Of a DNA stretch of 64,000 nt, positions 22,123 through 44,617 are shown in pieces; position 1 is the first letter of the stretch, and the number at the start of each line of letters is the position of its first letter. Position numbers and translations under genes: made by a program. Source of the stretch: Serratia symbiotica (Periphyllus acericola) (GTDB lineage Bacteria > Pseudomonadota > Gammaproteobacteria > Enterobacterales > Enterobacteriaceae); assembly GCF_964019515.1 (NCBI RefSeq), contig NZ_OZ026452.1, forward strand, positions 744,001 through 808,000. Reading direction: 5' to 3'. The notes below the pieces were generated by a model. It was not told the DNA's origin and ran no database searches. It was given only the letters and a program-made list of their open reading frames with translations.

Positions 22123-22129
22123 GGGCGTG

Positions 22130-23074
22130 ATGCAAAGGGCAACAATAAAACGACTGCAAAATGAGTTAACTTCACTGGTCAAACCTGGAATGAATCGTCA
22201 TTTGTGTCTGGCAGTAACGGGCCTGAGCCGTAGCGGTAAAACGGCTTTTATCACTGATTTTGTCAATCAATTGCTGCACGTATAGAACGGGGCGCGCCTG
22301 CTGTTATTCTCGCCAGTGCGCGAGGGGCGCCTGCTGGGTGTCAAACGCATTGCGCAGCGTGACCTGTGCATCCAGCGCTTTACCTATGATCAAGGGTTGG
22401 CACAGTTATACGGTACACCGCAAATCTGGCCGACCCCGACACGCGGCGTCAGCGAGATCTGCCTGACGTTGCGTTACCGTTCCAACAGTTCGCTGCTGCG
22501 TCACTTCAAAGAGACCTCCACGTTATATCTGGAAATTATCGATTATCCCGGTGAGTGACTGCTGGATTTGCAGATGCTCGAACAGGATTACCTAGTCTGG
22601 TCGCGCCAGATGGTGGGGCTACTGCAAGGTAATCGCGCTCAGTGGGCCAAAACTTGGTTGGATCTGTGCAAAAGCTGTGACCCACTGGCACCCGCCGATT
22701 AGAACAGGCTAGCGGCGATCGCCCAGAGTTACATCGACTACCTGCTGCGCTACAAACATTAAGGGCTGCACTTTATTCAGCCGGGGCGTTTCGTGCTGCC
22801 GGGTGATCTGGCAGGCACACCCGCGCTGCAATTCTTTCCGTGGCCGAATGTTGACGCCCTCGGCGAACCAAGGTTGGCACAGGCTGACAGGCACACCTAC
22901 ATCGGCATGCTGCGCGCACGCTTTAATTACTATTGCCAATCGATTGTCAAAAACTTCTATCAGCAACATTTTGCCAGCATCGATCGGCAGATCGTTCTGG
23001 TCGATTGCCTAAAAGCGCTCAACAGTGGGCCACAAGCGTTCAACGAGATGCGCTTGGCGCTTAGCTAATTGATG
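22130..23074 (+). pseudogene. ycjX: YcjX-family P-loop protein, 5' two thirds, broken
   Basis: YcjX is a stress-linked GTPase-like ATPase normally co-transcribed after pspABCDE. The start region MQRATIKRLQNELTSLVKPG and the P-loop GLSRSGKTAF are present. In-frame stops follow at about HV-stop-NGA, PGE-stop-LLD, PAD-stop-NRL, KH-stop-GLH and LS-stop-LM. The last segment, FYQQHFASIDRQIVLVDCLK then ALNSGPQAFNEMRLALS, ends in taattgatg exactly at an IS903-type terminus. The missing 3' part is found on the opposite strand at 42475-42950, abutting another IS copy. Confidence 0.93.
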
Positions 23075-24134
23075 GGCGTTGTTGAATAAATCTAACTTTT
23101 GGCAGGCACGCGGATCAGATCACTCTCCTTCTGTCAAAATAGCGACATTCCGTGGCCCAGCAAAAGTTCAACATCACCAACTGGAAGGCTTAAAACAACG
23201 CCCTTATCACTCGGGGTTTACTCACTTGCTGGGGGGATGAAACGGCACTTCACGCCTGGTACTGCGAGGCAAAACCTTCTCTGCGTGGTCGCCGACAACA
23301 TTATTCCGATATGGCAATCACCAGCGTATTGATGCTGAAACGGATTTTCGGCCTGACACTTCGCGCCCTCCAGGGCTTCGTCGACTCCATTGTCACACTG
23401 ATCAAAGTGCCGTTGAACTGCCCGGACGACACCTGCATCAGTAAGCGGGCAAAGTCCGGCCATGTCCCGTTTCCCGTTTAAAACCCCAACGCCGGGTGAA
23501 AGTGCGCACCTCGTTATCGACTCTAGCGGGCTCAACATGTTGGGTGAAGGCGAGTGGAAGGTAAAAAAACACGGTCAGGAAAAACGGCGGATCTGGCGAA
23601 AACTGCATTTGGCCGTAGATACAGAAACACATGAGGTCATCTGTGCTGACCTTTCTTTGAGCAATGTCACCGATACCGAAGCCTTCCCAGGTCTCATCCG
23701 TCAGAGGTACCGTAAAATCAAAGTCGCCTCGGCGGATCGGGCTTAGGATACGCGAGTGTGTGATGATAAGTTAAGGGGCAAGAAGCTCAAGGCGTTAATA
23801 CCGCCCAGCAGCGGAGCCCGTTATTGGTCGGCAGACTATGCAGAGCGAAATCAAGCGGTGGTGAACCAGCGCGTTACCGGAGACAACACACGGTGGAAAA
23901 GTATCACAGGCTACCACCGACGTTCGATAGCGGCAACAGCGAGGTACAGAGTAAAACAGCTATTTGGTGGTCACCTGTCGCTGCGAGATTATGATGGGCA
24001 CGTTGCAGAGGCGCAGGCGATGATCTGTGCATTAAACAAGATGCCGCTCGCCGGTATGCCAAAGTGTACGCCTTGCCTGAAAGATGCCCATTCACGGGAC
24101 TCTTTATTCCAAATCCAATTTATTCAACAAAGCC
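23075..24134 (+). mobile_element. IS903-type element inserted in ycjX
   Basis: Full-length copy (1060 bp) with ggcgttgttgaataaatc at the left and aatttattcaacaaagcc at the right. The transposase has an early ochre (KA-stop-NNAL), a 5-base duplication near 23470 (cccgtttcccgttt), the shared amber at 23744-23746, and Ala in place of the catalytic Glu. The left flank taattgatg is one copy of the 9-bp target duplication; its partner catcaattg (reverse complement) flanks the copy at 42951. The right flank lies inside an IS630-type element. Confidence 0.93.
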
Positions 24135-24279
24135 CATCTGACGTCGTTCATGTCGTGGGATGGGTGCTATGATCGGCATTACTCAGTCCGGTTGTGAGGG
24201 TTTGTGATGTTTGGTGATTGATCAGATCGCTCAAACCGGATTGAGTTCCTTCAGTTATCTACTATTTGGCGCAGGTATT
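24135..24279 (-). mobile_element. IS630-type element, 5' end only
   Basis: The outermost 145 bp of an IS630-type copy on the minus strand, from the first codons of the transposase (around MPIIAPIP) out to gcaggtatt and TA at 24280-24281. The inner part was removed at the IS903-type junction. Confidence 0.85.
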
Positions 24280-24293
24280 TAGGTAAAAATACC

Positions 24294-24482
24294 ATTTCAA
24301 AGTGGTTTGCAAAGTCAAGAGAACTCACACTGTTAAGCTGGAGCGGAAGTCCTCCATCGTTTCATGAAATACGAAGCCTTTCAGCCAGACTATACACCGA
24401 GTCTATCTCTGGAGATGGAGAGTTTGCACAGAAACTGCTTGGACACAAATTGGCAGCAATGACGGAAAAATATCAGGACTGA
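24294..24482 (+). pseudogene. Phage integrase (tyrosine recombinase) C-terminal fragment
   Basis: Open segment reading ISKWFAKSRELTLLSWSGSP then PSFHEIRSLSARLYTE, then LLGHKLAAMTEKYQD and stop. HEIRSLSARL carries the catalytic His and Arg, LLGHK the second His, and the Tyr of EKYQD is the nucleophile of lambda-type integrases. Everything before the C-terminal 60 residues is missing, replaced by the IS630-type end. It marks a lost prophage upstream of rsfS. The following 24483-24592 is AT-rich and has no gene. Confidence 0.8.
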
Positions 24483-24592
24483 TGAGGTAGCGAATGGATA
24501 GAAATAGCCGTATGATTATGACCGAATTTTGATTAATAGTGACATTTTTATTTTAAAATATTGATTTATAAGATAAAAAATAATGTAAACCT

Positions 24593-24898
24593 TTGCAAAG
24601 TAAAGCGCTCCAAGATTTCGTCATCGATAAAATCGATGACCTGAAAGGCCAAGACATTCTTGTTCTAAATGTACAGGGCAAATCCAGCATCACCGACTGC
24701 ATCATTATCTACACCGGCACCTCTACTACCCGTCATCGTGATGTCAATCGCTGACCACCTGATGCAACAATCCCGCGCTGCTGGCATAGCACTGCATGGT
24801 TATGAAAGGCCAGGAATTTCCTACTGGGTGAGGTGATTGTGCATGTGATGCAGGAAGAGAGCCATCACCTTTACGAGTTGGAAAAACTCTGGAGCTAA
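24593..24898 (+). pseudogene. rsfS: Ribosomal silencing factor RsfS, broken
   Basis: RsfS binds ribosomal protein L14 and blocks subunit joining in starved cells. The start (TTG) [20 protein letters not shown] followed by [15 protein letters not shown] is conserved. A frameshift after TGTST near 24730 is followed by stops and by loss of part of the middle. The end [20 protein letters not shown] then WS is again recognisable. It lies 3 bp upstream of rlmH, the normal order. It is non-functional as it stands. Confidence 0.9.
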
Positions 24899-24901
24899 GC
24901 G

Positions 24902-25372
24902 GTGAAACTGCAACTGGTGGCGGTCGGCACCAAAATGCCAGACTGGGTGCAAACCAGCCTTATCGATTATCTGCATCGCTTTCCCAAGGATATGCCGTTT
25001 GAGCTGAGTAAAATCCCGGCCGGCAAGCGCGGCAAGAGCGTTGACATCAAACGTATTCTGAAAAAAGAAGGCGAACAGATGCTGGCGGCAGTGGGTAAAG
25101 GCAATCGCGTTGTCACGCTGGATATCCCCAGCACAGCATGGGAAACGCCGCAACTGGCGCAGCAGCTTGAGCGCTGGAAGCAAGATGGCCGCAACGTCAG
25201 CCTACTGATTGGCGGCCCAGAAGGGCTGGCTCCGGCGTGCAAAGCCGCAGCAGAACAGAGCTGGTCGCTCTCGCCGTTGACATTACCGCATCCTTTAGTG
25301 CGCGTTCTGGTGGCTTAAAGCCTCTACCGTGCCTGGAGTATTGCAACAAATCATCCTTATCACCGGGAATAA
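24902..25372 (+). pseudogene. rlmH: 23S rRNA pseudouridine1915 N3-methyltransferase, C-terminal ochre
   Basis: SPOUT-class enzyme that methylates pseudouridine 1915 in helix 69. From GTG at 24902 the frame gives [20 protein letters not shown] through [13 protein letters not shown] and [11 protein letters not shown], then an ochre at 25316-25318 where relatives have Glu. The last 17 codons (SLYRAWSIATNHPYHRE) are preserved beyond it. These residues complete the knot and the RNA and SAM contacts, so the 138-residue product is probably inactive. It is a single-base lesion and clearly recent. Confidence 0.88.
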
Positions 25373-25407
25373 TCGGTGATAATCGTGACAGAGTGAAAAG
25401 CAGCGGG

Positions 25408-27313
25408 ATGAAAATAGAACGTAACCCTTTTCGCGACTATACAGCTGAATCTGTCCTGTTTGTACGCCGCGACTTGGTGGCATTCTTGGTCATTCTGGTG
25501 CTGAGCGGCATCCTGATCACCAACCTGTATCATCTGCAAATTGTGCGCTTTGAGGATTACCGTACCCGCTCTAATGAAAACCGCATCAAGTTGGTGCCCA
25601 TCGCCCCCAGCCGTGGCATCATCTATGATCGTAACGGCACCCCACTGGTGCTCAACCGCACCATTTATCAGTTACAGCTCATGCCGGAAAAGGTCAACAA
25701 TCTGGAGGCCACGCTGCAGGCTCTGCGTCCGGTGGTCGATTTAACCGATGATGACATCACCAATTTCGAAAAAGAGCGTCAGCGCTCGCGCCGCTTTGTC
25801 TCAATTCCCGTGAAAACCGCACTAAATGAAGCACAGGTCGCCCGCTTTGCAGTCAATCAGTTCCGTTTCCCCGGTGTGGAAGTAAAAGGCTACCAGCGCC
25901 GCTACTACCCTTATGGTTCCACCCTCACCAATGTCATTGGCTACGTATCGAAGATTAACGATCGTGACATCGAACGGCTGGATTCAGGACGGTAAACTGG
26001 CCAATTACGCCGCCACCCGCGATATCGGCAAGTTGGGCATCGAGCGCTATTATGAAAAAACGTTGCATGGTTGCATGGCAAAACCGGCTAAGATGAGGTT
26101 GAAGTCAACAACCGGGGTAAGGTGATCCGCCAACTGCACGAACAGCCGCCTTCCGTCGGCCAGGACGTTTACTTGATGTTAGATCTCAACCTGCAACGCT
26201 ATATCGAGCAGCTACTGGTGGGTAGCCGCGCTGCGGTGGTGGTGAGTAATCCGCATACCGGCAGCATTTTGGCAATGGTCTCCAACCCCAGCTACGATGC
26301 GAACTTGTTCGTCGATGGTATTTCCAAAAAAGATTATCAAGGGCTGCTGAACGATCCAAACCGCCCGCTGATCAATCGTGCCACTCAGGGGCTATACCCC
26401 CCCGCATCAACGGTGAAACCCTACATTGCCGTTTCGGCACTCAGTGCCGGGGTGATAACCAAAAATACCGTGGTGTTCGATCCCGGTTGGTGGCAGTTTC
26501 CCGGTTCGGAAAAACGCTTCCGCGACTGGAAAAAATGGGGTCACTTCCGCCTCAACGTCACCAAAGCGCTGGAGGAATCCTCAGATACCTTTTTCTATCA
26601 AGTCGCCTATGATATGGGTATGGATCGGCTATCGACCTGGTTAACCAAGTTCGGTTACGGCCAGTATACCGGTATCGACCTGTCTGAATAGTGCTCTAGC
26701 TTGATACCGACCCGTGAGTGGAAGCTCAAACGTTATAAAAAACCGTGGTATCGGGGTGATACCATTCCAGTCGGCATCGGCCAAGGCTACTGGACCGCTA
26801 CGTCTATCCAAATGTCCAAGGCGCTCAATACTCTGATTAACGATGGCAATGTCAAAACGCCACATCTGCTACAAAGTACCCGCGTCAACGGTGTGCTGGT
26901 GCCATTCCGCCAGGTAGATAGCCCGCAGATCGGGGATATTCACTCCGGCTTCTGGGAAATTGCCAAATACGGCATGTATGGTGTTGCCAATCGTCAGAAC
27001 GGTACGGCACGTCATTACTGCGCAGATGCGCCTTACCTCGCGGCGACAAAATCGGGTACAGCACAAGTATTCGGCTACGAAACCTACAACGCTAATAAAC
27101 TGGCAGAACATCTGCGTGACCATAAGCTGATGACTGCCTTTGCACCGTACAACAACCCTACGGTGTCAGTCGCTATCATTTTGGAAAACGGCGGTGCCGG
27201 CCCAGCGGATCGGGACGATTACTCATCAGATCCTCGATCATATCCTGCTGGGAGACAACAATACACAATTACCCAATGAGGCTCCGCTGCCGCCTGGTGT
27301 AGAAGGTGATTAG
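25408..27313 (+). pseudogene. mrdA: Peptidoglycan transpeptidase PBP2, several lesions
   Basis: PBP2 is the elongation-specific transpeptidase partner of RodA. It starts MKIERNPFRDYTAESVLFVR with its single transmembrane anchor. The frame shifts near 25980 (after DIERLDS) and again near 26080, has an amber at 26689-26691 and a further frameshift near 27210. Catalytic motifs PPASTVKP, SSDTFFYQ and ATKSGTAQ survive in separate pieces. Normally about 630 residues and essential for rod shape, so its loss is notable. It is followed 11 bp later by rodA. Confidence 0.93.
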
Positions 27314-27324
27314 GAAGATAGAAC

Positions 27325-28131
27325 ATGACTGAAAGCCAACAAAAAGGCTCGATCTGGGCCAAAATTCACATCGATCCCACGTTCCTGTTGCTCATTCTCA
27401 CTCTGCTGATTTACAGCGCGTTGGTGATGTTGAGCGCTAGTGGCCAGGACATTGGGATGATGGAGCGCAAGATCGGTCAAATCGTCATCGGGCTTATCGT
27501 TCTGGGCGTAATGGCGCAGATCCCGCCGCGAGTCTATGAAAGCTGGGCCCCCTATCTATATATTACCTATGTGATTTTATTGATACTGGTAGATGCTTTC
27601 GGCTAGATCAGTAAAGGCGTGCAACGCTGGCTGGATCTCGGTTTCGTGCTCTTCCAACCATCAGAAATCGCTAAAATTGCCGTGCCGCTGATGGTCGCAC
27701 GCTTTATGAACCGCGATGTCTGCCCGCCTTCGCTGAAGAATACCGGCATCGCGCTGGTGCTGATTTTCTTCCCAGCCCTGCTGGTCGCAGCACAACCGGA
27801 TCTGGGCACCTCAATCCTTATCGCCGCATCCGGCCTGTTCGTGCTGTTCTTATCCGGCATGAACTGGAAGCTGATCGCTATCGCCGCCCTGCTGCTGGCG
27901 GCCTTTATCCCGGTGCTGTGGTTCTTCCTGATGCACGGCTATCAGCGTGATCGCGTCATGATGCTGCTAGATCCAGAAAGCGATCCACTCGGTGCCGGCT
28001 ATCATATTATTCAGTCGAAAATCGCCATTTGTTCCGGGGGACTGGTGGGCAAAGGCTGGTTGCACAGCACTCAATCACAGTTGGAGTTTCTGCCGGAACG
28101 CCACACTGACTTTATCTTCGCGGTATTGGCC
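27325..28131 (+). pseudogene. mrdB: RodA (SEDS glycosyltransferase), amber and 3' deletion
   Basis: Lipid II polymerase of the elongasome. It starts MTESQQKGSIWAKIHIDPTF. An amber at 27604-27606 replaces Gln in LVDAFGQISKG (CAG to TAG). After it the frame is open through [28 protein letters not shown] and [15 protein letters not shown], then joins rlpA sequence at 28132. The last quarter of the protein (transmembrane segments 8-10) is deleted. So PBP2 and RodA are both lost. Confidence 0.92.
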
Positions 28132-28803
28132 TTCGATCCCAGTTCCCTGACAGCAGCCCATCCGAGGCTACCAATCAATCCCAAGTTACGTGCGCATTAC
28201 CAACCTGGCTAATAGCCGTCAGTTGGTGGTGCGCATCAACGATCGCGACCCTTAAACCAAAGGCCGCATCATCGACTTCTCGAAAGCCGCCGCCGATCGC
28301 CTGAACCTGACCAATAACACTAAGGTCAAGGTCGATTTTATTCGCGTTGCGCCAGACGGCACCCTAAGCTGACCCGGCACCACGGTTGGGAAACAAAGAT
28401 ATGCCCTACCGGCGCGTCCGGATCTCGGCGCCAGCAGCATGGGTACGCCAGTGCAAATAAGCCCCACTCACCAATGGTGCAGCGGTGCACCAGGTCGCTA
28501 ACAGTAGCCTGAACATCAGCGACAATGTACCAGAAAATAACAGCCACAGTGGTTTCTTCGGTGTACCTTGGCACCATGCGTGATTGCTCCACATAAACTG
28601 CCGTGGCCGCTGCCTCAACGGGTGATTATTGGGTGCAGATCGGAGCGTTGAGCAACGTCGAACACGCTCAGCGTTGGGCGCAACGCCTGAGCCAGCAGTT
28701 TGGAGTACCGGGCAAAGTCGCAGCATCCAGCCAGGCGGTACAACTGCAACAGCGCTTGTCTAGCGAAGCACAGCGACACTCTTTCATCATTGTGGACCTT
28801 TAG
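28132..28803 (+). pseudogene. rlpA: RlpA lipoprotein remnant fused to rodA
   Basis: RlpA is a septal lytic transglycosylase in some bacteria, with a double-psi barrel and a C-terminal SPOR domain. The 5' end is gone. The barrel is visible as [30 protein letters not shown] in another frame and KGRIIDFSKAAADRLNLTN, with frameshifts and stops between. The SPOR domain is recognisable at 28624-28800 (GDYWVQIGALSNVEHAQRWA). It is the third gene of the mrdA-mrdB-rlpA-dacA order of relatives. It is dead. Confidence 0.85.
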
Positions 28804-29087
28804 CATTAACTACGGCCGAACAGGATTAATAAGCGCTTACTTAGCTAAAACATTTTCTTGTAGCTAAAGTGTCTTTAAACCAGATGTGTCCAGTGATTAA
28901 TGGTCAGCGCAAAGCAGAAGTAGCACCTCCTTCACTGCAAATCAGAAATGTCCTTACCCCTATCGAAGCCAGATAGTTTTATTCATTTGTCACTTACCCA
29001 GAAAATTTCCCTCTCGGTGAGTAGAGCGTTTGCTTTACAGCAGATGCAAGATATGTATATCAATTGCTATACAAGAAGGAGCAAATC

Positions 29088-29834
<747 letters not shown>

Positions 29835-30054
29835 ACCTGAGCAAGCAACCTAGCGCTTGATTTTATCTAGGACATGATATCTACGAGCAGCATCCTTTTA
29901 CCAGATCTCTGCTCGTATCAATTCATACATAAATTTAATGTCTGTTTAGGGGACATTACAGCTTGGCGTTAACAGTCCAATGATGAATAATCCCTACCGG
30001 GATCTTATATGTTATAGTGTGATCTTTACCCTCACGGATGTTGTAGTTACGATC

Positions 30055-31266
30055 ATGAAACATGTAAATTATTTTCGCTTCATCAAGCGTATAGCACTCA
30101 GTACCGTTATCACAATGAGCACCGCTACTGTAGCGCATGCCGATGACGTTAATATAAAGACCATGATCCCAGATGTCCCGCAAATCGATGCGGCAGCATA
30201 CATACTGATCGATTACAATTCCGGCAAGGTGCTGGCTGAGATGAACGCCGATGCGCGCCGCGATCCAGCCAGCCTGACCAAAATGATGACCAGCTACGTT
30301 ATTGGCCACACGCTGAAAGTCGGCAAGATCGGCGAGGAAGATCTGGTTACTGTGGGTAAAGATGCTTGGGCGACGGGCAACCCTGTGTTCAAAGGTTCTT
30401 CGCTGATGTTCCTTATACCAGGCGATCGCGTATCAGTCGCCAAGCTGAGCCGTGGTATTAACCTACAGTCCGGTAACGATGCCTGCGTGGCGATGGCCGA
30501 CTATGTAGCGGGTAGCCAGGATGCGTTCGTTAATCTGATGAATACCTACGTTAACAAGCTTAGCCTACAGAATACCCACTTCCAGACGGTACATGGCCTG
30601 GATGCGCAGAGTCAGTACAGTTCGGCACGCGATATGGCGCTGATCGGCCAGGCACTGATCCGCGATGTACCAGACGAGTACGCAATTTATAAAGAAAAAG
30701 AGTTTACTTTCAATAATATACGCCAGATGAACCGTAACGGTCTACTGTGGGATACCAGCTTAAACGTTGATGGCATTAAAACCGGCCACACCGATGCAGC
30801 GGGATACAACCTGGTAGCTTCGGCCACTGCAGGCCAGATGCGTCTGATCTCCGCCGTACTGGGTGGCCGTACCTACAAAAGCCGTGAAACCGAAAGCAAG
30901 AAATTGCTGACCTGGGGCTTTCGTTTCTTCGAAACCGTCGCGCCATTAAAAGTCGGCAAAGCGTTCGCTTCTGAACCCGTGTGGTTTGGCAATGCCGATC
31001 GCGTCGATCTGGGCGTGGATAAAGACGTCTATCTGACAATCCCACGTGGCCGCATGAAAGATCTGAAGGCCAGCTACGTGCTCAATACCCCAGAAATTCA
31101 CGCTCCGTCGGCGAAGAACCAGGTTGTCGGCAACATCAACTTCCAACTGGATGGTAAAATCATCGACCAATGCCCGCTAGTAGTGATGAACGAGGTGAAA
31201 GAAGGCGGCTTCTTTAGCCGTACCGTTGACTGCGTCAAACTGATGTTTCATCGCTGGTTCGGATAA
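30055..31266 (+). CDS. dacA: D-alanyl-D-alanine carboxypeptidase PBP5
   Basis: Periplasmic, membrane-tethered enzyme that trims the terminal D-Ala from peptidoglycan stem peptides. From [20 protein letters not shown] (signal peptide ending AHA, mature [13 protein letters not shown]) it is 403 residues, the exact family length. Catalytic motifs SLTK, SGN (QSGNDAC) and KTG ([13 protein letters not shown]) are intact, and the C-terminal amphipathic anchor (KLMFHRWFG) is present. I reject an upstream in-frame start because it precedes the signal peptide. It is intact although its neighbours mrdA, mrdB and rlpA are dead. Confidence 0.96.
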
Positions 31267-31506
31267 GAGGTGATAAGTGGTAATCGTCAAAAATTTTGTA
31301 ATGTCTGTCACAAAATATGAAGGCCAGCCGAGCAAAAGTGTGCACTTAGCGCCTATCCAGTAGGCACACATTGCTGCAGCCATGATCGCATGGACTGTAC
31401 ATTAACCCTTGCCTTAAAGATAGTTTCTCCAGGGGCCTTCTGCTAGCGAGGCGGCTTTTTCATATGCTGACAGAAGACTAATATCTTGAGGCTCTATATT
31501 TTTTGG

Positions 31507-32493
31507 GGCTTTGTTGAATAAATCGGATTTGGAATAAAGAGTCCCGTGAATGGGCATCTTTCAGGCAAGGCGTACACTTTCTGGCATACCGGCAAGCGGC
31601 ATCTTGTTTAATGCACAGATTTACTCTTTACCTCGCTGTTGCCGCTATCGAACGTCGGTGGTAGCCTGTGATACTTTTCCACCGTGTGTTGTCTCCGGTA
31701 ACGCGCTGGTGCACCACCGCTTAATTTCGCTCTGCATAGTCTGCCGACCAATAACGGGCTCCGCTGCTGGGCGGTATTAACGCCTTGAGCTTCTTGCCCC
31801 TTAACTCATCATCACACACTCGCGTATCCTAAGCCCGATCTGCCGAGGCGACTTTGATTTTACGGTCCCTCTGACGGATGAGACCTGGGAAGGCTTCTAT
31901 ATCGGTGACATTGCTCAAGGAAAGGTCAGCACAGATGACCTCATGTGTTGCTGTATCTACGGCCAAATGCAGTTTTCGCCAGATCCGCCGTTTTTCCTGA
32001 CCGTGTTTTTTTGCCATCCACTCGCCTTCACCCAACATGTTGAGCCCGCTAGAGTCGATAACGAGGTGCGCAATTTCACCCAGCGTTGGGGTTTTAAACG
32101 GGACATGGCCGGACTTTGCCCGCTTACTGATGCAGGTGTCGTCCGGGCAGTTCAACGGCACTTTGATCAGTGTGACAATGGAGTCGACAAAGCCCTGGAG
32201 GGCGCGAAGTGTCAGGCCGAAAATCCGTTTCAGCATCAATACGCTGGTGATTGCCATATCGGAATAATGTGGTGGGCGACCACGCAGAGAAGGTTTTGCC
32301 TCGCAGTACCAGGCGTGAAGTGCCATTTCATCCCCACAGCAAGTGAGTGAATCCCGAGTGATAAGGGCGTTGTTGTAAGCCTTCCAGTTGGTGATGTTGA
32401 ACTTTTGCTGGGCCACGGAATGTCGCTATGTTGACAGAAGGAGAGTGATCTGATCCTCGTCCCGGCAAAAAGTTTGATTTATTCAACAACGCC
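31507..32493 (-). mobile_element. IS903-type element with ~69-bp deletion
   Basis: Complete ends: ggctttgttgaataaatc at 31507 and gatttattcaacaacgcc ending at 32493. Transposase on the minus strand from GTG near 32416. It has the shared amber at 31829-31831 and Ala at the catalytic Glu. It lacks about 69 bp in the 3' part (junction gcacagat/ttactc at about 31620), the same deletion as the copy at 56567. Length is 987 bp. No 9-bp duplication is seen at its ends. Confidence 0.92.
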
Positions 32494-32886
32494 GCTGCAA
32501 CCAAGACATGAAGCGGATTCCCTTGCATTAAACGTTTTAAAAAGGCCATTATGCCTTTAGGAGCCTTATCCCCAACTGCCCCTAATAATATAAGGTAACG
32601 TAACAGGTATTTAGAGCCTATCCCACTTAGGGGCGCTTAGCACGTGGTAACATTTTCCATGCATCCTTAGTGGGTAGGCGAAATAATAGCGATATTTTCC
32701 TCATCAATAGCACCGGGTAGAGCTGCTTTATAGGGTCTGTTCATTTAGCTCAGGGAAGCGACCCAGCGGATTATTGTGCAAATTTTGGCTAGAATAAACC
32801 CAAAATCGCCCTAAAATTGCTATAGAAGGTTGTCGTTGCGCCGCAGATTCCCGATAATAGGCGGCTTTATTTTTTTAGGTATCGTA
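32494..32886. other. Gene-free stretch upstream of rsxA
   Basis: No gene recognised. It contains an imperfect inverted repeat, gcctatcccacttagg near 32632 and ccttagtgggtaggc near 32666, that can fold into a hairpin. Its arms resemble the terminal repeat of the ~145-bp interspersed repeat elsewhere in the window. The last 100 bp should hold the rsx promoter, but I cannot point to a convincing one. Confidence 0.45.
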
Positions 32887-33468
32887 ATGACTGAATACAT
32901 GTTCCTTTTTGTCGGTACCGTACTGGTGAACAACTTCGTCTTGGTTAAGTTTCTTGGCCTGTGTCCCTTCCTCGGCGTATCCAAGAAGCTGGAAAGCGCC
33001 ATCGGCATGGGGATGGCCACCACCTTTGTTATGACGTTGGCATCTGTCAGCGCTTGGCTGATCAATACCTTTATCTTGGTTCCGCTAGATCTTGTGTATC
33101 TGCGCACGCTGTCGTTCATTCTGGTGATCGCAGTGGTGGTGCAATTTACCGAGATGGTGGTGCGTAAAACCAGTCCAGCATTGTATCGCCTGCTGGGCAT
33201 CTTCCTGCCGCTGATCACCACCAACTGCGCGGTGCTCGGCGTAGCACTGCTTAACGTCAATCTGGGCTATAACTTCCTACATTCTGCGGTGTATGGCTTC
33301 AGCGCTGCCGCTGGATTTTCTCTGGTGATGGTGCTGTTTGCTGCTATCCGCGAACACCTGGCTATTGCCGATGTGCCAGCACCGTTTCGTGGTTCCGCGA
33401 TATCCCTGATCACTGCCGGGTTGATGTCGCTGGCCTTTATGGGCTTTACCGGGCTGGTGAAAGGCTAA
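32887..33468 (+). CDS. rsxA: Rsx/Rnf electron transport complex subunit A
   Basis: Integral inner-membrane subunit of the ion-translocating ferredoxin:NAD oxidoreductase-like complex, which in Escherichia coli keeps the SoxR iron-sulfur cluster reduced. The product is 193 residues with six hydrophobic segments. The conserved [18 protein letters not shown] near the N-terminus and [17 protein letters not shown] carry the cysteines that bind the membrane-buried cluster shared with RsxE. The stop overlaps the start of rsxB (taatg). The frame is intact. Confidence 0.96.
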
Positions 33469-34040
33469 TGAGCGCATTGTGGGTTGCTATTGCGGTGCTC
33501 AGTGCGCTCGGGTTTCTGTTCGGTCTGGCGCTGGGCTATGCCGCACGGCGCTTTGAGGTAGCAGAAGATCCGGTAGCCGAACAGATCGATGATATTCTGC
33601 CGCAAAGCCAATGCGGACAGTGCGGATACCCCGGTTGCCGTCCCTATGCCGAGGCGGTGGCCAATGGTGAGATGATCAACAAGTGCGCTCCTGGCGGCGA
33701 GGTTGTGATGCTAAAACTGGCTGAGTTGCTCAACGTAGAGCCACAGCCATTAGGCAGCGAAATTGACGCCGAACCGGTACGACAAGTCGCCTATATCGAC
33801 GAAGCCAACTGTATCGGCTGTACCAAGTGCATTCAAGCCTGCCCGGTAGATGCTATTGTGGGTGCTACCCGTACCATGCACACGGTGATTGCAGACATCT
33901 GTACCGGTTGCGATCTGTGCGTTGCCCCCTGCCCTACTGACTGTATTGAAATGAGACCGATCGCTACCAATCCCGCTAACTGGAAGTGGGATATGAAGAC
34001 CATCCCAGTGCAAGTAATTCATGTGGAGCGACATGTTTAA
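33468..34040 (+). CDS. rsxB: Rsx/Rnf electron transport complex subunit B
   Basis: Iron-sulfur protein that passes electrons between RsxC and the membrane subunits. The 190-residue product has an N-terminal membrane helix ([20 protein letters not shown]), a 4Fe-4S motif CGQCGYPGC with a further Cys (INKC), and two ferredoxin-type motifs [12 protein letters not shown] and [12 protein letters not shown]. It overlaps rsxA by three bases and its last eight bases overlap rsxC, so the operon is tightly coupled. No lesion seen. Confidence 0.96.
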
Positions 34041-35886
34041 GCTGTTCGACGCGTTTAAAAATGACCGGATATGGGATTTTGACGGTGGAATACATCCGCC
34101 GGAAATGAAGGCGCAATCTTGCTGCGTGCCACTGCGTGCCGCTCCCCTGCCAAAGACCTTTGTGATCCCGCTACAGCAACATTTGGGGCCGGAGGGCGAG
34201 CTGTGCATCACCCTCGGTGATCTGGTGCTGAAAGGCCAACCCCTGACTGTCGGTCAAGGCCGTGTTGTTCCTTTACACGCCCCGACTTCCGGCACCGTCA
34301 ACGCCATAAAGCCGCATATCACCGCCCACCCCTCTGGGCTGGCAGAGCTGTGCGTGTTCATTGAGGCTGACGGCGAAGACCGCTGGGGTCAACGCGATCC
34401 GGTGGCGGATTACCGCCAACTGTCAGCGGCAGAGCTGATTCAACGCATCCATCATGCTGGTATTGCCGGCCTGGGTGGTGCTGGCTTCCCCACCTCCAGC
34501 AAATTGCAAAGCGGCATCAGCAGCGTGGAGACGCTGATCCTTAATGCCGCCGAGTGTGAGCCTTATATCACCGCAGATGATCGTCTAATGCAAGAGCATG
34601 CCGATCAAATCATTGAGGGTACGCAGATCCTGCGCCATGTGCTGCAACCGAAAGTCACCTTCATCGGTATCGAAGATAACAAACCAGAGGCCATTGCGGC
34701 GCTAAAGCAAGCACTGCATGGTCAACCAGGTATTGCGCTGCAGGTGATCCCGACCAAGTACCCTTCCGGTGGGGCCAAGCAACTGACCAAAATCCTCACT
34801 GGCAAAGAAGTACCGCACGGCAAGCACTCCTCTGCCATCGGTGTGTTGATGCAGAACGTTGGTACTGCCTTCGCGATTAAACGCGCAATAGTCAACGGTG
34901 AACCATTGATTGAACGCGTGGTCACCCTGACCGGCGAGGCGCTCAGTAAGCCAGGTAACCTGTTGGCGCGCATAGGTACGCCGGTACAGCATCTATTAGA
35001 CTATGCCGGTTTCCAACCGCAGGCGCAGCCGATGGTAGTTATGGGGGGGCCGTTGATGGGTTTTACCCTTCCCGCTCTCAGCATACCTATTGTTAAAATC
35101 AGCAATTGCATTCTGGCCCCGTCGCTCAATGAAATGTCGCCGCAAGTGCCTGAACAGGCATGCATCCGTTGCGGGTTGTGCGTGGATGCCTGCCCTGCGG
35201 GTTTGTTACCGCAGCAACTTTACTGGTTCAGCCGTGGCAAGGAGCATGACAAAGCGCGTAACCATAATCTGTCCGACTGCATCGAGTGTGGTGCCTGTGC
35301 GTTCGTATGCCCCAGTAATATTCCACTGGTGCAGTACTACCGGCAAGAAAAGGCCGAGATTAAGGCCATCGATCAGGCAGCGGCCCGTACCGCCGAAGCC
35401 AAAGCACGTTATGCAGCCAAGCTAGCGCGTTTAGAACGTGAGAAGCTAGCACGTGAACAGCGTTACCAGAAAGCGGCCATAAAACTGACCAATGACGATC
35501 AGAATAAAGTGCAAGCCGCACTGGCACGGGTGCGTAGCAAAAACGCTGAGGCAACAGCCACGACGGTTCATGGCCAGCAGCTAGATAACAGCGAGATCAC
35601 CGCTGCCCGTGAAGCACGCAAGGCACAGGCGCGCGAATGCCGCGCCCAGCAGGAAACCCAGGCCAGTACAAGCGAAGATCCGCGCAAAGCGGCGGTGGAT
35701 GCTGCACTGGCACGCGTGAAAGCTAAAAAAGAAGCGGTGCTGGCCCCCCTCCCTGTGCCAAACCCAGCAGCACCTGCTGTGGTTGAAGCAGATCCACGCA
35801 AGGCAGCGGTAGCAGCAGCCATCGCCCGTGCTAAACCCAAGAAAGCAGCACGGGAAGTCTCGCCTTATGAAACCAATGAAGAGTAA
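34033..35886 (+). CDS. rsxC: Rsx/Rnf electron transport complex subunit C
   Basis: Peripheral NADH- and FMN-binding subunit. I start at [20 protein letters not shown] (34033), matching relatives. The core has [10 protein letters not shown] (flavin/NADH-binding region) and two 4Fe-4S motifs, [12 protein letters not shown] and [12 protein letters not shown]. The C-terminal tail is Ala/Lys-rich with imperfect repeats of the type [18 protein letters not shown]; about two to three units remain, against more in Escherichia coli. The product is 617 residues. The frame is intact. Repeat number in this tail is known to vary between species. Confidence 0.95.
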
Positions 35887-36009
35887 CCCGATTAAAGCGT
35901 ATTAACCTGGCAATGAATCTGGTAGAATATCCAGCGATAAATTTTCACAGCGCCTTGTCGTGCAGGGCGATAGAACTGCCACAAGTTTGGCAAAAGGTGT
36001 CGTTACTCT

Positions 36010-37095
36010 ATGAAGTTCAGGCCGGTATCATCTACAGCCGCCAGAGGCTTACACATTGCCAGTTCACCCTTCGCCCATAACCCGCAAAACACCCACCGCA
36101 TCATGCTTTGGGTGATGCTGGCATGTATTCCTGGTATCGCGGCGCAGGTAGGCTTGTTTGGTTACGGCACATTCATTCAAACCGCGTTGGCGATGATAGT
36201 CGCACTGCTGGCGGAAGCGGCCATTCTAACTTTGCGCAAACTACCGGTGTGCCGTCGGTTGGCGGACAACTCCTCGCTACTGACTGCCCTGCTGCTCGGC
36301 ATCAGCTTGCCCCAGTTAGCCCCATGGTGGATGATCGTCATCGGCACCTTTTGTGCCATCGTGATCGCCAAACAATTATACGGGGGCTTGGGGCAGAACC
36401 CGTTCAACCCGGCGATGGTCGGCTATGTGGTGCTACTGATCTCCTTCCCAGTACAGATGACCAGTTGGTTATCGCCGCACGAACTACGCGCCACGACACT
36501 GTCATTCCAAGATACCTGGCTGATCATTTTTAGTGGGCATAGTGCTCAGGGGTCTGACATCCACGCGTTGCAGATGGCTTATGACGGCGTCAGCCAAGCC
36601 ACGCCACTGGATGCTTTCAAAACCGGTTTACGCAGCGGCTACAGCGTTGAACAGGTGTTACAGCAGCCGCTGTTTAGTGGTGTGCTGGCGGGCATTGGCT
36701 GGCAGTGGGTCAACCTCGGTTTTCTCGTCGGCGGCCTGTTCATGCTCACCTGTAAGCTGATCCACTGGCAGATCCCGGTCAGCATGCTGGCAGCGCTTGG
36801 CATCTGCTCTGGGATAGCTTGGGGATGCGATGCGGCCCACCAGGCATCGCCGCTGATTCATCTGTTCTCCGGTGCCAGCATGCTCGGCGCATTTTTTATC
36901 GCCACAGATCCGGTCAGCGCCTCAACCACGCCGAGGGGGCGCCTAATTTACGGCGCGCTGATTGGTGTGCTGGTATGGCTGATCCGCGTTTATGGCGGCT
37001 ACCCGGATGGCGTTGCCTTCGCCGTGTTGTTGGCTAATATCACCGTACCTCTAATCGACCATTACACGCAGCCGCGCGTTTACGGTCATCGCTAA
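36010..37095 (+). CDS. rsxD: Rsx/Rnf electron transport complex subunit D
   Basis: Polytopic inner-membrane subunit that carries a covalently bound FMN. The product is 361 residues with about nine hydrophobic segments. The FMN-linking Thr is expected in DGVSQATPL (the usual motif has SGAT, here SQAT). Conserved [15 protein letters not shown] and [20 protein letters not shown] are present. A gap of 123 bp separates it from rsxC, longer than the near overlap in Escherichia coli, with no gene in it. The frame is intact. Confidence 0.95.
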
Positions 37096-37101
37096 GGAGC
37101 C

Positions 37102-37734
37102 ATGATGCTAAAATCAATGAAGAAACATGGCACCACGCTGGCGGTTTTCGCTGCGGTCACCACGGGTTTGACTGCTGTAGTTAACAGCCTGACGCAAAAA
37201 ACCATCGCGCATCAGGCGGCACAGCAGCAAAAAGCATTGCTCGATCAGGTCGTGCCGCCGGAGAATTACGACAATAATATGCAAGCGGAGTGCTTTCTGG
37301 TCAGCGATCCGATATTGGGCAACAGCGGCCCACATCACCTGTATCTGGCGCGAAAAAATGGTCAGCCAAGCGCCGCGGCGCTGGAGACCATTGCGCCGGA
37401 CGGTTACTCTGGTGCTATTCAACTGCTGGTCGGTGCTGACTTCAACGGCACCGTGCTTGGCACCCGGGTGATCGAGCATCACGAAACGCCAGGCTTAGGC
37501 GACAAAATTGAACTGCGCATATCGAATTGGATCGCCTTCTTTAGCGGCAAGAAGCTCGAAAGCTCAGGTGATAAACACTGGGCTGTAAAGAAGGATGGCG
37601 GCGTGTTCGATCAATTCACCGGTGCGACCATCACCCCACGTGCCGTGGTGAATGCTGTGCGGCGCACGGCATTGTATATGGAAACGTTGCCACCTAAACT
37701 GGGTAGCTTATCGGTATGTGGAACCAACAAATGA
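37102..37734 (+). CDS. rsxG: Rsx/Rnf electron transport complex subunit G
   Basis: Membrane-anchored periplasmic subunit with covalent FMN. It has an N-terminal helix ([20 protein letters not shown]) and the flavinylation motif [12 protein letters not shown] near residue 175, where the Thr after GA links FMN. Length is 210 residues, or 209 if the second Met is used. Six bases separate it from rsxD and its TGA overlaps the ATG of rsxE (atga). No lesion seen. Confidence 0.95.
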
Positions 37735-38432
37735 GTGAAGCAAAAGATCTGATTGTTCAGGGGTTATGGAAGAATAATTCAGCGCTGGTGCAACTGCTGG
37801 GAATGTGCCCACTGTTGGCGGTGACCTCCACGGTCACCAACGCCCTTGGGCTGGGCCTGGCAACCACTTTAGTACTGACGCTGACCAACGCCTCCATTTC
37901 TGCGGTACGCCGCTGGGTGCCAAGTGAAGTACGCATCCCGATTTATGTAATGATTATCGCGGCGGTTGTCAGTATCGTGCAAATGCTGATCAACGCCTAC
38001 ACCTTTGGCCTTTACCAGTCTTTGGGGATCTTTATTCCGCTGATCGTCACCAACTGCATCGTGGTTGGCCGCGCTGAGGCAGTAGCAGCTAAGAAGTCTA
38101 TTGGCCTGTCGGCACTAGATGGTATGGCCATCGGTATCGGTGCGACTAGCGTAATGGTGACGCTAGGCGCGATGCGCGAGCTGCTAAGCAAAGGCACGCT
38201 GTTTGATGGTGCCGATATGCTGCTGGGCAGTTGGGCCAAGTTGATGCGTATTGAGGTGGTGCATTTTGATAGCCCATTTCTGCTAGCAATGCTGTCGCCA
38301 GGGGCCTTTATTGGCCTGGGTCTGCTGCTGGCGCTGAAGTACCTGATAGACGAGAAGATGAAGGTGCGTAAGGCTCAGGCCAGCATTCCCGTCGCAATGT
38401 TGGCAGTAGAATGCACAGATAAAGTCCGATGA
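37731..38432 (+). CDS. rsxE: Rsx/Rnf electron transport complex subunit E
   Basis: Integral membrane partner of RsxA, with inverted topology. I start at [20 protein letters not shown] (37731), which overlaps the rsxG stop by four bases. The product is 233 residues with six hydrophobic segments. [12 protein letters not shown] and [18 protein letters not shown] are the conserved Cys-bearing segments matching those of RsxA. It overlaps nth by four bases. The frame is intact. Confidence 0.95.
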
Positions 38433-39070
38433 ATAAATTCAAGCGACTAGAAATTTTTACCCGGCTGCACGACAACAACCCGCATCCGACCACTGAGCTG
38501 GTGTATACCACGCCGTTTGAGTTGCTGATTTCGGTGCTGCTTTCTGCGCAGGCTACTGATGTCAGCGTCAATAAGGCGACGGCGAAGCTGTATCCAGTCG
38601 CCAATACGCCGGCCGCCCTGCTGGCGCTAGGTATCGATGGCGTCAAGGCGTACATCAAGACCATAGGCCTGTTCAACAGCAAGGCTGAAAATGTGATTAG
38701 AACCTGCCGCAGGTTGCTGGAACTGCACGGCGGTGAAGTCCCCGAAGACCTCGCCGCGTTGGAGGCGCTGCCAGGCGTAGGCCGTAAAACTGCCAATGTG
38801 GTGCTGAACACCGCCTTTGGCTGGCCAACTATTGCCGTAGATACCCATATCTTCCGCGTCTGCAACCGCACGCATTTCGCACCGGGAAAAAACGTCGATC
38901 TGGTCGAGGAAAAGTTGCTGAAGGTGGTTCCTGCCGAGTTCAAGGTCGACTGCCACCACTGGCTGATCCTGCATGGGCGCTACACCTGCGTTGCGAGAAG
39001 GCCCCGCTGTAGTTCCTGCGTTATCGAAGATCTGTGCGAGTTTAAAGAAAAGGTTTACCCCAGCGCTTAA
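38429..39070 (+). CDS. nth: Endonuclease III (DNA glycosylase/AP lyase)
   Basis: Base-excision repair enzyme for oxidised pyrimidines. The 213-residue product has the helix-hairpin-helix [16 protein letters not shown] with the catalytic Lys, the catalytic Asp in [10 protein letters not shown], and the 4Fe-4S cluster as [17 protein letters not shown] (C-x6-C-x2-C-x5-C). It begins [20 protein letters not shown] within the end of rsxE, as in Escherichia coli, so it is the last gene of the rsx operon. The frame is intact. Confidence 0.97.
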
Positions 39071-39399
39071 TGCTCCGAGAAACCAAACTACCCTGGCTTC
39101 CTGCCTGGTGCTCTTCCTATTTCACTGCGTGTTTTTATCAAATATGCGATATCTAGCAGTAAATGTTCCTGCATGGGCGTTGTTGAATAAATCATATACA
39201 CTTGTCCCTGGATAATAACGTCTCCTGATTAGGTTGATGATAACATTAATATAAATGTGGCTATTCGCAAGGTTACAACGACGCTTGCCATTAGCCAACA
39301 CATGGTGTGTAGGACCCTGCGCGTGGCAGCGAGAGGAAAGAGGACGATAGCCTGATGACATTCAGTGTAGATTGAAAAATGAAAATAATGAGGTCGCTC
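39071..39399. other. Gene-free stretch after nth with a solitary IS end
   Basis: No gene recognised. It includes the solitary IS903-type terminal repeat at 39176-39193. The rest shows no recognisable family in either strand. It probably marks a junction between the nth region and the tpx-tyrR region, which are not neighbours in Escherichia coli. Confidence 0.4.
39176..39193. repeat. Solitary IS903-type terminal repeat
   Basis: ggcgttgttgaataaatc is identical to the 18-bp end of the IS903-type elements in this window, but no element follows on either side. It is either the footprint of a deletion that removed all but the tip or a recombination scar. Confidence 0.8.
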
Positions 39400-39537
39400 T
39401 CATTCTTCTTCTTCGTCTAATAGTCCTGTCATCAAACACAAAACCTGTGCATACAATCTGTCTGAAGAACTCAGTTGGCGGGTTGCCGACAAGGCGAAAT
39501 GATAAACTTTGCGTATCCAATCCAACCTGGTTGACAT
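39400..39537 (-). CDS. Small hypothetical protein
   Basis: A 45-residue frame from the ATG at 39537: MSTRLDWIRKVYHFALSATR then QLSSSDRLYAQVLCLMTG, ending in an acidic tail LLDEEEE. The composition looks like a real protein (basic helical start, acidic end), and it is divergent from tpx. I do not recognise a family. An in-frame upstream ATG would add 25 less plausible residues. It may be a remnant of a longer gene. Confidence 0.35.
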   Translation of the reverse strand: MSTRLDWIRKVYHFALSATRQLSSSDRLYAQVLCLMTGLLDEEEE

Positions 39538-39634
39538 AAACTGACGCCAGGGAATGAACCTAATGTTATAGACGGCCAACGGGCCATCTGGGTTCATGGC
39601 CTTGGTGTACACACCTGTAAGAAGGAAACTAACG

Positions 39635-40139
39635 ATGACTCAAACCGTACATTTTCAAGGCAATCCGCTCAGCGTGGCAGGCAAAATGCCACAGCCGGGC
39701 AAACAAGCCAAAGCCTTCTAGCTGGTTGCCAAAGACCTGTCAGACGTAGAACTGAGCAGCTTTGTAGGTAAACGCAAAGTCCTTAACATTTTCCCTAGCG
39801 TTGACACTGGCGTTTGCGCGAGTTCAGTACGTAAATTTAACCAGTTGGCCAGCGACATAGACAATACCGTGGTGCTGTGCATTTCTTCTGATCTGCCGTT
39901 CGCATAATCCCATTTCTGCGGCGCAGAGGGCCTGAACAACGTGATTACGCTGTCCACCCTGCGGGGCGCAGCCGTTCAAACATAGCTATGGTGTTGATAT
40001 CGCTGATGGGCCGTTGGCGGGCCTGGCCGACCGTGCCGTGGTGGTGCTAGATAGCCAAGATAACGTTTTGTACAGCGAGCTTGTGGATGAAATCATCACC
40101 GAACCGAATTACGATGCAGCGTTAGCGGCGTTGAAATAA
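39635..40139 (+). pseudogene. tpx: Thiol peroxidase Tpx, stops and frameshift
   Basis: Periplasmic/cytoplasmic peroxiredoxin that reduces lipid peroxides via thioredoxin. It starts [20 protein letters not shown]. An amber at 39719-39721 stands before [14 protein letters not shown]. The peroxidatic Cys ([14 protein letters not shown]) remains. An ochre at 39905-39907 precedes the resolving Cys region [13 protein letters not shown], and a frameshift near 39960 follows, after which [16 protein letters not shown] is readable in another frame. Ends ALAALK-stop. It is divergent from or adjacent to tyrR as in relatives. Confidence 0.93.
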
Positions 40140-40180
40140 AAACACCCCGCGGTAAACCCAAAGGCATTGCCAGGATCTTT

Positions 40181-41676
40181 TTACTCTTTGCCTGCCTTGC
40201 GGCTGCTTATCCCGCACTCACGCAACTTGTCGATGGCAGTATGGGATATGCCCAACCGCTTCACCAGCTTGCGGGTGCTGGGATAAGTGCGGCACAACCG
40301 TGTCAGCACCGAGCATTCAAAACGCTTGCTGATATTGTCCAATGACCCTTCCAAGACGTCATCCCCAGGTGGCAGATCCCCGTTGAACTTTGGCAGCACA
40401 ATATCCTGCGGAAGCAGTTCGTAGCCCTCAGCCTGAGTCAGTGCACGATAGATGGCGTTTTTCAATTGCCTCACGTTGCCCGGCCAGGCGTATTGACGGA
40501 GGAAACTACCTAGATCGTTGGCCAACCTAGGCAGCGCCACGACTTGCTCATCGGCGAAACGTGCTACAAACAATTCGGTCAACGGCATGATGTCTTGCGG
40601 ACGCGCGCGCATCGGCGGAATGGTAATGTTGAGTACGTTGATGCGATAATAGAGATCTTCACGGAACTCGTTGCGCTGCACCAGTTCAGTCATATTCTTC
40701 TGAGTCGCACAGATTACCCGTATATCGACATGTACTTCATACTCCTCACCCACTCGGCGGAAAGTGCCGTCATTGAGAAAGCGCAGTAACTTGGTTTGCA
40801 TGCGCAGCGACATCTCACCGATTTCATCCAGTAGCAACGCCCCCCCCGCTGGCTTGCTCGAAAAAGCCCTTATTACCTTCCAATGCGTTAGGATAAGCGC
40901 CCAGCGCATGGCCGAAAAGTTCACTTTCCATCACATGATCCGGCAATGCAGCGCAGTTTAACTCAACGCCTCAACGCCAGAAATGGCTGTTTACCACGTG
41001 GGCTGCCTAGGTGGCAGGCGAGCGCCAGAATATCTTTGCCGGTGCCAGTGGCGCCGACGATCAGCAGCGGCGCATCAAACATCGCCAGCTTGCGCGCCTG
41101 TTCCAGAACATGGCACATCGGTGCGCTGACGGCAACGATATGATCGAATTCGGTATCGTCATTGACAGAAAGATCCTGAAACTGACGCCCTATCCGCGCG
41201 GTTGATTTCAGCATTACTACCGCCCCCACAGCATTGTTGTGCTGATCCTCGTCTCCTCGTCTTCCAGATAAATAGGCGTGATATCCATCAGGAAGTCCTG
41301 GCTGCGGATCACCACCCCCGCGGAATGTGGCGCGGAGTGTTTGCTATCTAGCCAGCAGTTAAAGTTGTAGCCGCCGATCAGCACGCTGGCCGTCTGGTGG
41401 CGGATTTTGTCCTTGCTTAAGCTAAACAGCACCTGATCCGCCGGATTGACCAGTTCGACCTTGCCTTTCATGTCGATCGACAACACCGGTTCTGGCATTG
41501 ATTCCCGCAACGCACGCTGTTTACGTTTAGACGGTATGAAATTGACAATGCGCACATCAGTCACGCCGTCAATGTGGCGGATCTCCGTCATCAACACGCG
41601 AAAAGTGTCAAATTCAAGCTGGGAAAAATTGAGGTAAATACGGCCGATGGGAGCGATTTCGATGCCACGTAAAGTT
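40181..41676 (-). pseudogene. tyrR: TyrR regulator, N-terminus deleted and frameshifted
   Basis: Regulator of aromatic amino-acid biosynthesis and transport (ACT, PAS, AAA and helix-turn-helix domains). The first 25 or so residues are replaced by ycjF sequence: text resumes at [20 protein letters not shown]. The PAS and linker region is open to about 41220, where the frame shifts. Walker A reads VGATGTGKDILALACH. An 8-bp tandem duplication (gcgttgag) near 40970 and a G-run indel near 40850 break the AAA domain again. The remainder to the C-terminal helix-turn-helix (TRKLVKRLGISHTAIDKLRE) is open. It has no start codon of its own. Confidence 0.92.
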
Positions 41677-42478
41677 CGGATGCCCCCGCGAAGGCAATGT
41701 TCAGCAGTACCAATCGAAATAGCCAAATGCGGCTAAAATAGCCCAGAGCAATACCATATACCGCAGCAATGCGATTAATCAGGTGAATATTGCGCCAGGC
41801 GATAAACGCCATGTCAACGAGCGCTAACCGGCTGATGGCGATCATCAACGTTGACTCGGCAGCTGCATGGCTGATTTCCCGACGTGCCTTGTTATCCAGC
41901 ACTGGCTGCACTAGCTTGGCGTACAGTTCCACCACCTCGCGATCGTTCTGGGTTTCATGTAATGAAGCCTGCCAGCGCTGCAGCGCTGGGTGCCCCTTCT
42001 CCAACCCAGCCTGACGTGCCAGCGTCTCACAGAATGCACGGCTTTTGCCTAGGCCGTGGCTGTGCAGCAGTTCGCGCGACACGTTGCGCTCTTTCGCCCG
42101 TTGATGTAAACGATACAGGCGGTACCATTCGGTGATCAGCAAGCGAATACTGGCAAGGAGGATCACACCACTGGCCACACCACCGCCGATGGCAATCCAA
42201 TCCTGCTGCCCCCAAGCAGTATGCAGCCATTGCACGCTCTGCGCCACTAGGCTGGCAGCGAAAAGTACAAACCCGACGGTGACCACTTTGCGCCATAGGC
42301 TACGTCTCGGCTTCAGTACTGCCATAATGATGTCTTCTTCCTGTTGCAGCTCAGATGCCGTCGGATAAAAGCGTTCGGCCTGTTCTTGATCGAAGGTGAT
42401 ACCAGAGCGCAACTCCAGGGCCTGGGATGGCGATAGTGGTTGTTCAAAATCGATACGGGGTTTGATCGACTCACTCAT
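41677..42478 (-). pseudogene. ycjF: YcjF membrane protein, C-terminus replaced by tyrR
   Basis: DUF697-type inner-membrane protein of unknown function, paired with ycjX. It starts [20 protein letters not shown] at 42478 (overlapping the ycjX stop). Two transmembrane segments and the conserved [20 protein letters not shown] and [16 protein letters not shown] blocks are intact. About residue 262 ([10 protein letters not shown]) it runs into tyrR sequence out of frame and gains a junk tail of some 27 codons. Roughly the last 90 residues are deleted. Confidence 0.92.
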
Positions 42479-42950
42479 CGCAATGTCTCTTCCAGTAAAA
42501 ACTCCATCGCTGCATCCAGGCGGATGTGCGGCAAAGGGCTGTCCACGTTCATGGTACGCGGACGGAATGGGTCAAAATAGAACCCTGGATGTTGCCAGAA
42601 CGCTGGCCTAGGCAGACGCACAGGCACTTCGCTAGGAAACACAGTCAGTGGTGCGCCATCTCCAGCCGATTGCCCTTCAGCGCCGGTATAGACTGCCCCT
42701 GATGTTCAACAATGCCGCTTTCAGTGGCCTGCACTGCCGCGAGAGCCACACAATCCATGCTTATACCCTCAAATCCGGCGTTTTGCCACGCTTCTTGTAC
42801 TAACTGCTGCAACAGCGAGACCAGATTGGCGTGCTAATCGGTAGTGATATGATCCGCCTTAGTCGCGGCGAACATCAGTTTGTCGATGGTGGGCGAAAAC
42901 AGCCGACGCAACAGCGTGCGTTTGCCGTAATGGAAACTCTGCATCAATTG
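42475..42950 (-). pseudogene. ycjX: YcjX 3' third, separated from its 5' part
   Basis: Reads LMQSFHYGKRTLLRRLFSPT then IDKLMFAATKADHITTD, an amber, HANLVSLLQQLVQEAWQNAG and later PLTVFPSEVPVRLP and [14 protein letters not shown] after a frameshift. This is exactly the part missing from 22130-23074. Its first bases are caattgatg (reverse complement of catcaattg at 42942-42950), repeating the last nine bases of the 5' part with one difference. It ends overlapping ycjF as in Escherichia coli. Confidence 0.93.
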
Positions 42951-44614: not shown

Positions 44615-44617
44615 TAA

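Follow-up and report, generated by a model that had tools for sequence, protein, structure and literature searches.

Transposon-triggered inversions with reciprocal target duplications have been described in Aeromonas salmonicida subsp. pectinolytica 34mel (PMC5756416). In the available extracts of that paper, duplications are split between two copies of an insertion sequence (IS), genes are cut into distant fragments, and inversions are inferred from the duplications together with gene context; one of the four inversions is without its second duplication, which is ascribed to later rearrangement. In Serratia symbiotica SCt, IS families were named the key factor of rearrangement (PMC4122931), and the extracts on S. 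symbiotica genomes (PMC4122931, PMC5013485) report gene order rearranged between strains, as inferred from mobile elements flanking syntenic clusters. The main text of the SCt paper, in the form available, has no word starting with "inversion" or "duplication" (PMC4122931). For the Lenski experiment with E. coli, the absence of target duplications was read as pointing to adjacent deletion or to recombination between IS copies, in extracts that treat deletions and duplications in laboratory E. coli and Pseudomonas fluorescens (PMC11708052). The locus that we compare with these systems is the gene ycjX of S. symbiotica from Periphyllus acericola, which is cut in two by IS copies of the IS5 family (IS903 type). 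It lies in the window, by which we mean the whole analysed stretch of 64,000 nucleotides (G000:C1:744001-808000, from a single-contig genome of 1,897,958 bases).

The locus shares with 34mel the split duplications, the genes cut into distant fragments and the way in which inversion is inferred, and with the other S. symbiotica genomes a gene order that is rearranged between strains. Unlike 34mel, it belongs to a reduced genome, and the earlier order is seen in an intermediate relative; where 34mel has four inversions, there are 17 exact split duplications here in addition to the ycjX pair, and 95 of 102 end-paired copies are without a duplication of their own. The evidence consists of split duplications rather than of elements flanking syntenic clusters, and it comes from a scrambled natural chromosome rather than from laboratory populations. 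IS inversions read from split duplications are already published, and no novelty is claimed for pairing such duplications as an approach; this case is unusually extensive. It provides a clean example of IS copies rearranging a shrinking chromosome, with the earlier order kept in a relative. Because split duplications pair breakpoints exactly, they can give the rearrangement history of IS-rich genomes without reliance on gene order alone.

Gene order was compared with four relatives: G026 (3.6 Mb), G003 (5.2 Mb), G028 (2.5 Mb) and G027 (1.5 Mb in 40 contigs). G026 gave the best ycjF match in a search of the genus and is the nearest ycjX-retaining relative among 30 genomes. The features that define the ycjX break are as follows, in window coordinates.

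22118..23074, plus strand: 5' part of ycjX, broken, with five in-frame stops, the last of them inside the duplication (tblastn with the 470-codon frame of G026)
23066..23074, plus strand: 5' copy of the 9-bp target duplication, TAATTGATG, with C changed to T relative to CAATTGATG
23075..24134, plus strand: ISa, IS5 family (IS903 type; GGCGTTGTTGAATAAATC), transposase frame broken
24135..42950: inverted segment of 18.8 kb, from gene order compared with G026, G003 and G027
42478..42953, minus strand: 3' part of ycjX, broken, with one in-frame stop and one frameshift (tblastn with the same G026 frame)
42942..42950, minus strand: 3' copy of the target duplication, CAATTGATG in gene orientation, as in G026
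42951..44012, minus strand: ISb, the inverted partner copy

The original prediction had placed taattgatg at 23066-23074 ahead of a plus-strand IS and catcaattg at 42942-42950 ahead of an IS in the opposite orientation, and this layout was found. In gene orientation, the two 9-mers read TAATTGATG on the 5' side and CAATTGATG on the 3' side, with eight of nine bases identical. In G026, ycjX reads CAATTGATG at the site, within a 470-codon open frame that encodes a PF04317 YcjX-like protein. The 3' copy is therefore unchanged, and the 5' copy has taken a C-to-T substitution that turns CAA into TAA. Four other in-frame stops are found in the 5' part. Since ycjX carries these other lesions, the inversion need not have inactivated it.

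A match of eight bases in nine is insufficient by itself: the window contains 7 occurrences of the shared 8-mer against an expectation of 3.3, a count reached by 2 of 100 shuffles. A chance match was nevertheless rejected on the continuity of the ycjX gene. When each 200-bp flank was placed on the ycjX of 110 relative loci, the two flanks overlapped, by extrapolation, by exactly 9 bp in every one of the 93 loci that could be scored (76 on the plus strand and 17 on the minus strand). At the remaining 17 loci, the window's own genome among them, one or both flanks were without a match. The 110 loci were drawn from two overlapping collections in which several genomes appear twice, and they are not all independent. 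The predicted 9-bp duplication with one change is thus borne out by an overlap of that exact length in the relatives.

We consider it very probable that the insertion of an IS into ycjX was followed by crossing over between inverted copies, which flipped the adjoining segment, much as had been predicted. This is the best account of the 9-bp overlap, the two oppositely oriented IS copies at the ends of the segment and the gene order in G027 (below). The insertion of an IS5-family, IS903-type element into ycjX, with duplication of the 9 bp CAATTGATG, is shown by the exact overlap on an uninterrupted gene. At that time, an inverted copy would have lain about 18.8 kb further along, beyond a segment assembled by IS events from three loci. 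Crossing over between the inverted copies, most likely by RecA-dependent homologous recombination, would then have flipped the segment, so that the halves of the duplication came to lie at opposite junctions. The recA gene of this genome spans its whole model and has no internal stop.

The element is about 1.05 kb long, with 18-bp terminal inverted repeats beginning GGCTTTGTTGAATAAATC. We call it IS903-type on the basis of the terminal repeat and size of IS903. Two other copies in the window score above the cut-off of NF033579 (IS5 family transposase); PF13737 and PF01609 were matched as well. With one mismatch allowed, the IS-end motif occurs 190 and 189 times in the genome (379 ends); 307 exact ends (79 + 76 + 81 + 71) were listed with their 20-bp flanks, and the other 72 fall outside this list. 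Among 102 copies with paired ends, 7 keep their own 9-bp duplication with at most one mismatch, which supports the IS903-type duplication size. The 102 aligned copies used for identity and reading frames are a different set.

The same arrangement could have arisen by replicative intramolecular transposition (adjacent inversion), in which the IS at the far end attacked ycjX and in one step inverted the segment, duplicated the target and gave rise to the second copy. This rival differs in the agent, not in the event. By our derivation, it predicts the same geometry, namely a split duplication, inverted copies and the same polarity of IS ends, and elements of the IS5 family are described, in the available extract, as transposing by both replicative and conservative routes (PMC11708052). 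It would also have made sister copies that were identical at first, and as a mark of replicative transposition such a sister relationship gave no signal in the copy comparisons. ISa and ISb share no derived substitutions, having 19 and 25 of their own, respectively, and in the ranking of each other's nearest copies they come 40th and 19th of 52. Their identity is 0.958 over ungapped columns (94.5% counting gaps), and the mean between copies, also over ungapped columns, is 0.958 for 53 copies and 0.957 for 102 copies (5,151 pairs). Nor does identity rise among the exact split pairs described below: in 9 of the 17, which represent 8 distinct copy pairs, both copies are aligned, and these average 0.956. 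ISa and ISb are thus no more alike than any two copies, which fits crossing over between separate copies better. A replicative event during a burst of transposition, before the copies had diverged, would leave no sister signal. We favor homologous recombination and regard the replicative route as rather improbable; that the flip came about by crossing over, and in a single step, is what we infer.

The relative G027 retains neighbors of the un-inverted arrangement. On its contig C4, the order is dacA, IS, rsx, nth, IS end, ycjX5' (minus strand) and manA (minus strand), and the order nth/ycjX5'/manA is the one predicted by turning the window segment back. The comparison of synteny with relatives, proposed earlier as a check, therefore gave two concordant results: the predicted gene order in G026 and un-inverted nth/ycjX5' neighbors in G027. 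Barring a re-inversion in G027, its neighbor order places the change in the lineage of the window, and the inverted order looks derived.

The flipped segment is itself a mosaic, made up as follows.

24280..31506, plus strand: block 1, rlmH-mrdA-rodA(mrdB)-dacA (G026 C1:762869-771827; G003 1.317-1.323 Mb)
31507..32493, minus strand: IS copy at the dacA/rsxA fusion, with boundaries identical to the base in G027
32494..39175, plus strand: block 2, rsx genes and nth (G026 C1:1214902-1221579; G003 2.42 Mb)
39176..39193, plus strand: 18-bp IS end at the fusion of nth to tpx-tyrR, present after nth in G027 too
39620..40136, plus strand: tpx (thiol peroxidase), broken by two in-frame stops and one frameshift
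40181..41726, minus strand: tyrR, in pieces
41591..42478, minus strand: ycjF, TIGR01620 family

Block 2 encodes proteins named RsxA, RsxC, RsxE and Nth. The TIGR01620-family protein is presumably the product of ycjF, and its nearest named matches are from Serratia species, e.g., S. marcescens. In G026 and G003, the parts of the segment sit at three distant loci (rlmH-mrdA-rodA-dacA, rsx-nth and tpx-tyrR-ycjF-ycjX), and in G028 the rlmH-dacA and rsx-nth blocks are at separate places. Given these three distant loci, we reject the idea that the segment was one piece in the ancestor. It consists of three loci fused at IS copies, and the join in ycjX is the only ancestral one. The original prediction of a flip of roughly 20 kb therefore holds for the flip, with the size corrected to 18.8 kb (24135-42950). 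Turning the segment back does restore psp-ycjX-ycjF-tyrR-tpx, the order found in G026, where stretches of some hundred bases are inserted between the genes; it does not restore an ancestral 20-kb region.

Wrong joins at 1-kb repeats could in principle produce such an arrangement in a genome with many similar IS copies. We regard an assembly artefact as very improbable, given that the genome is one contig and that two features recur at the same bases in G027, an assembly in 40 contigs: the dacA/IS/rsxA junction and, at the IS-end fusion, its nth side. The copies also differ by about 4%, which would presumably let reads place them.

Split duplications extend well beyond ycjX. Besides the pairs of ends that belong to one copy, 46,869 other end pairs can be formed from the listed ends. 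Exact 9-mer matches were found in 23, six of them from one repeat-borne 9-mer, leaving 17 exact split duplications as opposed to a mean of 0.39 and a maximum of 3 in 300 shuffles. Control 9-mers gave no exact and four one-mismatch pairs; a control slid by one base gave no exact and 19 one-mismatch pairs among twice as many ordered pairs. When the flanks of each exact pair were put together, 16 of the 17 had a match in G026 that crossed the join, among the matches listed. The scoring in G026 covered 40 of the 221 first-look candidates. For pairs 1 and 8, the match reached across no more than 91 and 80 bp, respectively, and that of pair 9 is to a multi-copy element; the listed matches in G026, G003 and G028 did not include pair 691471/1555723. 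Joins of present neighbors served as controls. None of seven without a duplication was contiguous in G026 (in three the halves lay at different places; in four only one half was placed, making these weaker controls), and the single control with a duplication was contiguous. Since 16 of 17 exact pairs point to an uninterrupted site in a relative, they offer a route to reconstructing the rearrangement history.

One further pair of halves lies within the window.

46771..46779: half of the window's second split duplication, ATAGTCATC, right of the IS copy at 45727-46770
57554..57562: the other half, GATGACTAT, right of the IS copy at 56567-57553; the joined flanks match G026 across the join

This pair (GATGACTAT) is another inversion signature in the window. 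Elsewhere in the genome, copies 699915-700850 and 1780517-1781549 have all four flanks reciprocal, in the same orientation and 1.08 Mb apart. For such a pair, a simple exchange implies two circles, which makes later inversions likely.

Several observations weigh against the proposed history of ycjX. The two halves of the duplication do not match perfectly (8 of 9 bases). With the IS copies related as a star, the lack of a sister relationship tells less against replicative transposition, and mosaics are not resolved. G027 has lost the stretch from ycjX3' to tpx and cannot display an un-inverted IS within ycjX. Genome-wide, two-mismatch pairs of IS-end 9-mers are not in excess (106 versus a shuffle mean of 98 and maximum of 117), so most ends are without a recognizable partner. 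One-mismatch pairs number 22, self pairs included, against a mean of 9.5 and a maximum of 16 in 40 shuffles. With only this roughly twofold excess and none at two mismatches, single cases such as ycjX need context. Finally, the partner IS has no matching duplication: CATCTGACG stands at 24135 and ACATACCTG at 44013, and a simple exchange between two copies fails at this junction, whose flanks are the following.

24135..24143: inner flank of ISa, the 9-mer CATCTGACG, within half of a repeated, apparently IS630-type element
44013..45662, plus strand: outer flank of ISb, tRNA-Arg and folD region, starting ACATACCTG

The 9-mer CATCTGACG also occurs at the IS ends at genome positions 299650 and 1850099. 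No partner for ACATACCTG was found among the 307 IS ends at up to two mismatches. The mismatch between the flanks rules out that two intact insertions made a simple reciprocal exchange; the partner was already a recombinant copy or later turned into one. Copy 1849044-1850099 was considered as the third member of a cycle and rejected, as its other flank fails to match. Inversion with a second, inverted copy, as originally predicted, thus accounts for the ycjX side, but turning the segment back does not restore the 24135/44013 junction. We do not count the lack of a reciprocal split of the partner's duplication as excluding inversion, because one case in 34mel is also without it (PMC5756416).

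These flanks bear on a third alternative, that several overlapping IS-IS events with other end points, rather than one flip, made the present order. The sequences on either side of the partner copy are those of other insertions, one at the repeat-borne CATCTGACG site and the other at a folD site that is uninterrupted in G028, and 95 of the 102 end-paired copies are without a duplication of their own. Yet turning back this segment alone yields the nth/ycjX5' order of G027, and one flip suffices for the ycjX side. We therefore judge a series of events to be unlikely, if a more serious contender than replicative transposition, and retain the single inversion between ISa and ISb as the preferred history.

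The CATCTGACG site of the apparently IS630-type repeat has been struck by the IS more than once, the 9-mer or its complement being found at 5 of the 307 ends. Repeats of this type with CATCTGACG lie at 12910-13056 and 24135-24281 of the window and at genome positions 299650, 356622, 947786 and 1850099. Pieces of IS630 transposase are present in the window.

The transposase of the IS copies carries a shared stop. Of 98 aligned copies that cover the position, 97 have TAG after ...VASADRA (for example, window 31829-32416 and 45804-46376), and one, copy 1130310-1131361, has TAC. None of the 102 aligned copies has a frame of at least 280 amino acids; the longest is 219, as compared with a length of 289 for the NCBIfam model. 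In G027, three of four copies covering the stop position read TAC and the fourth reads CAC; the copy at the dacA/rsxA junction is among them. Spread in trans or homogenization by recombination would explain the shared TAG. We tentatively suggest, as a possibility short of an even chance, that the chromosome is a network of insertion scars, left by about 190 IS copies, from which much of the ancestral order could be rebuilt; that the IS spread or was homogenized without an intact transposase of its own; and that the kind of recombination that flipped ycjX may also have homogenized the stop. If so, matching split 9-mers would rebuild the ancestral order breakpoint by breakpoint, and the element would have spread, or been homogenized, with the aid of a helper acting in trans or through recombination among its copies.

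Two minor observations concern the IS copies themselves. Twelve of the 102 end-paired copies are short elements of 84 to 113 bp that resemble miniature inverted-repeat transposable elements (e.g., genome 58344-58456, 424554-424650 and 600665-600761). Genome copies 1238518-1239488 and 1430211-1431181 are 99.9% identical, share a common 20-bp flank and lie in opposite orientation, apparently as the result of a recent duplication.

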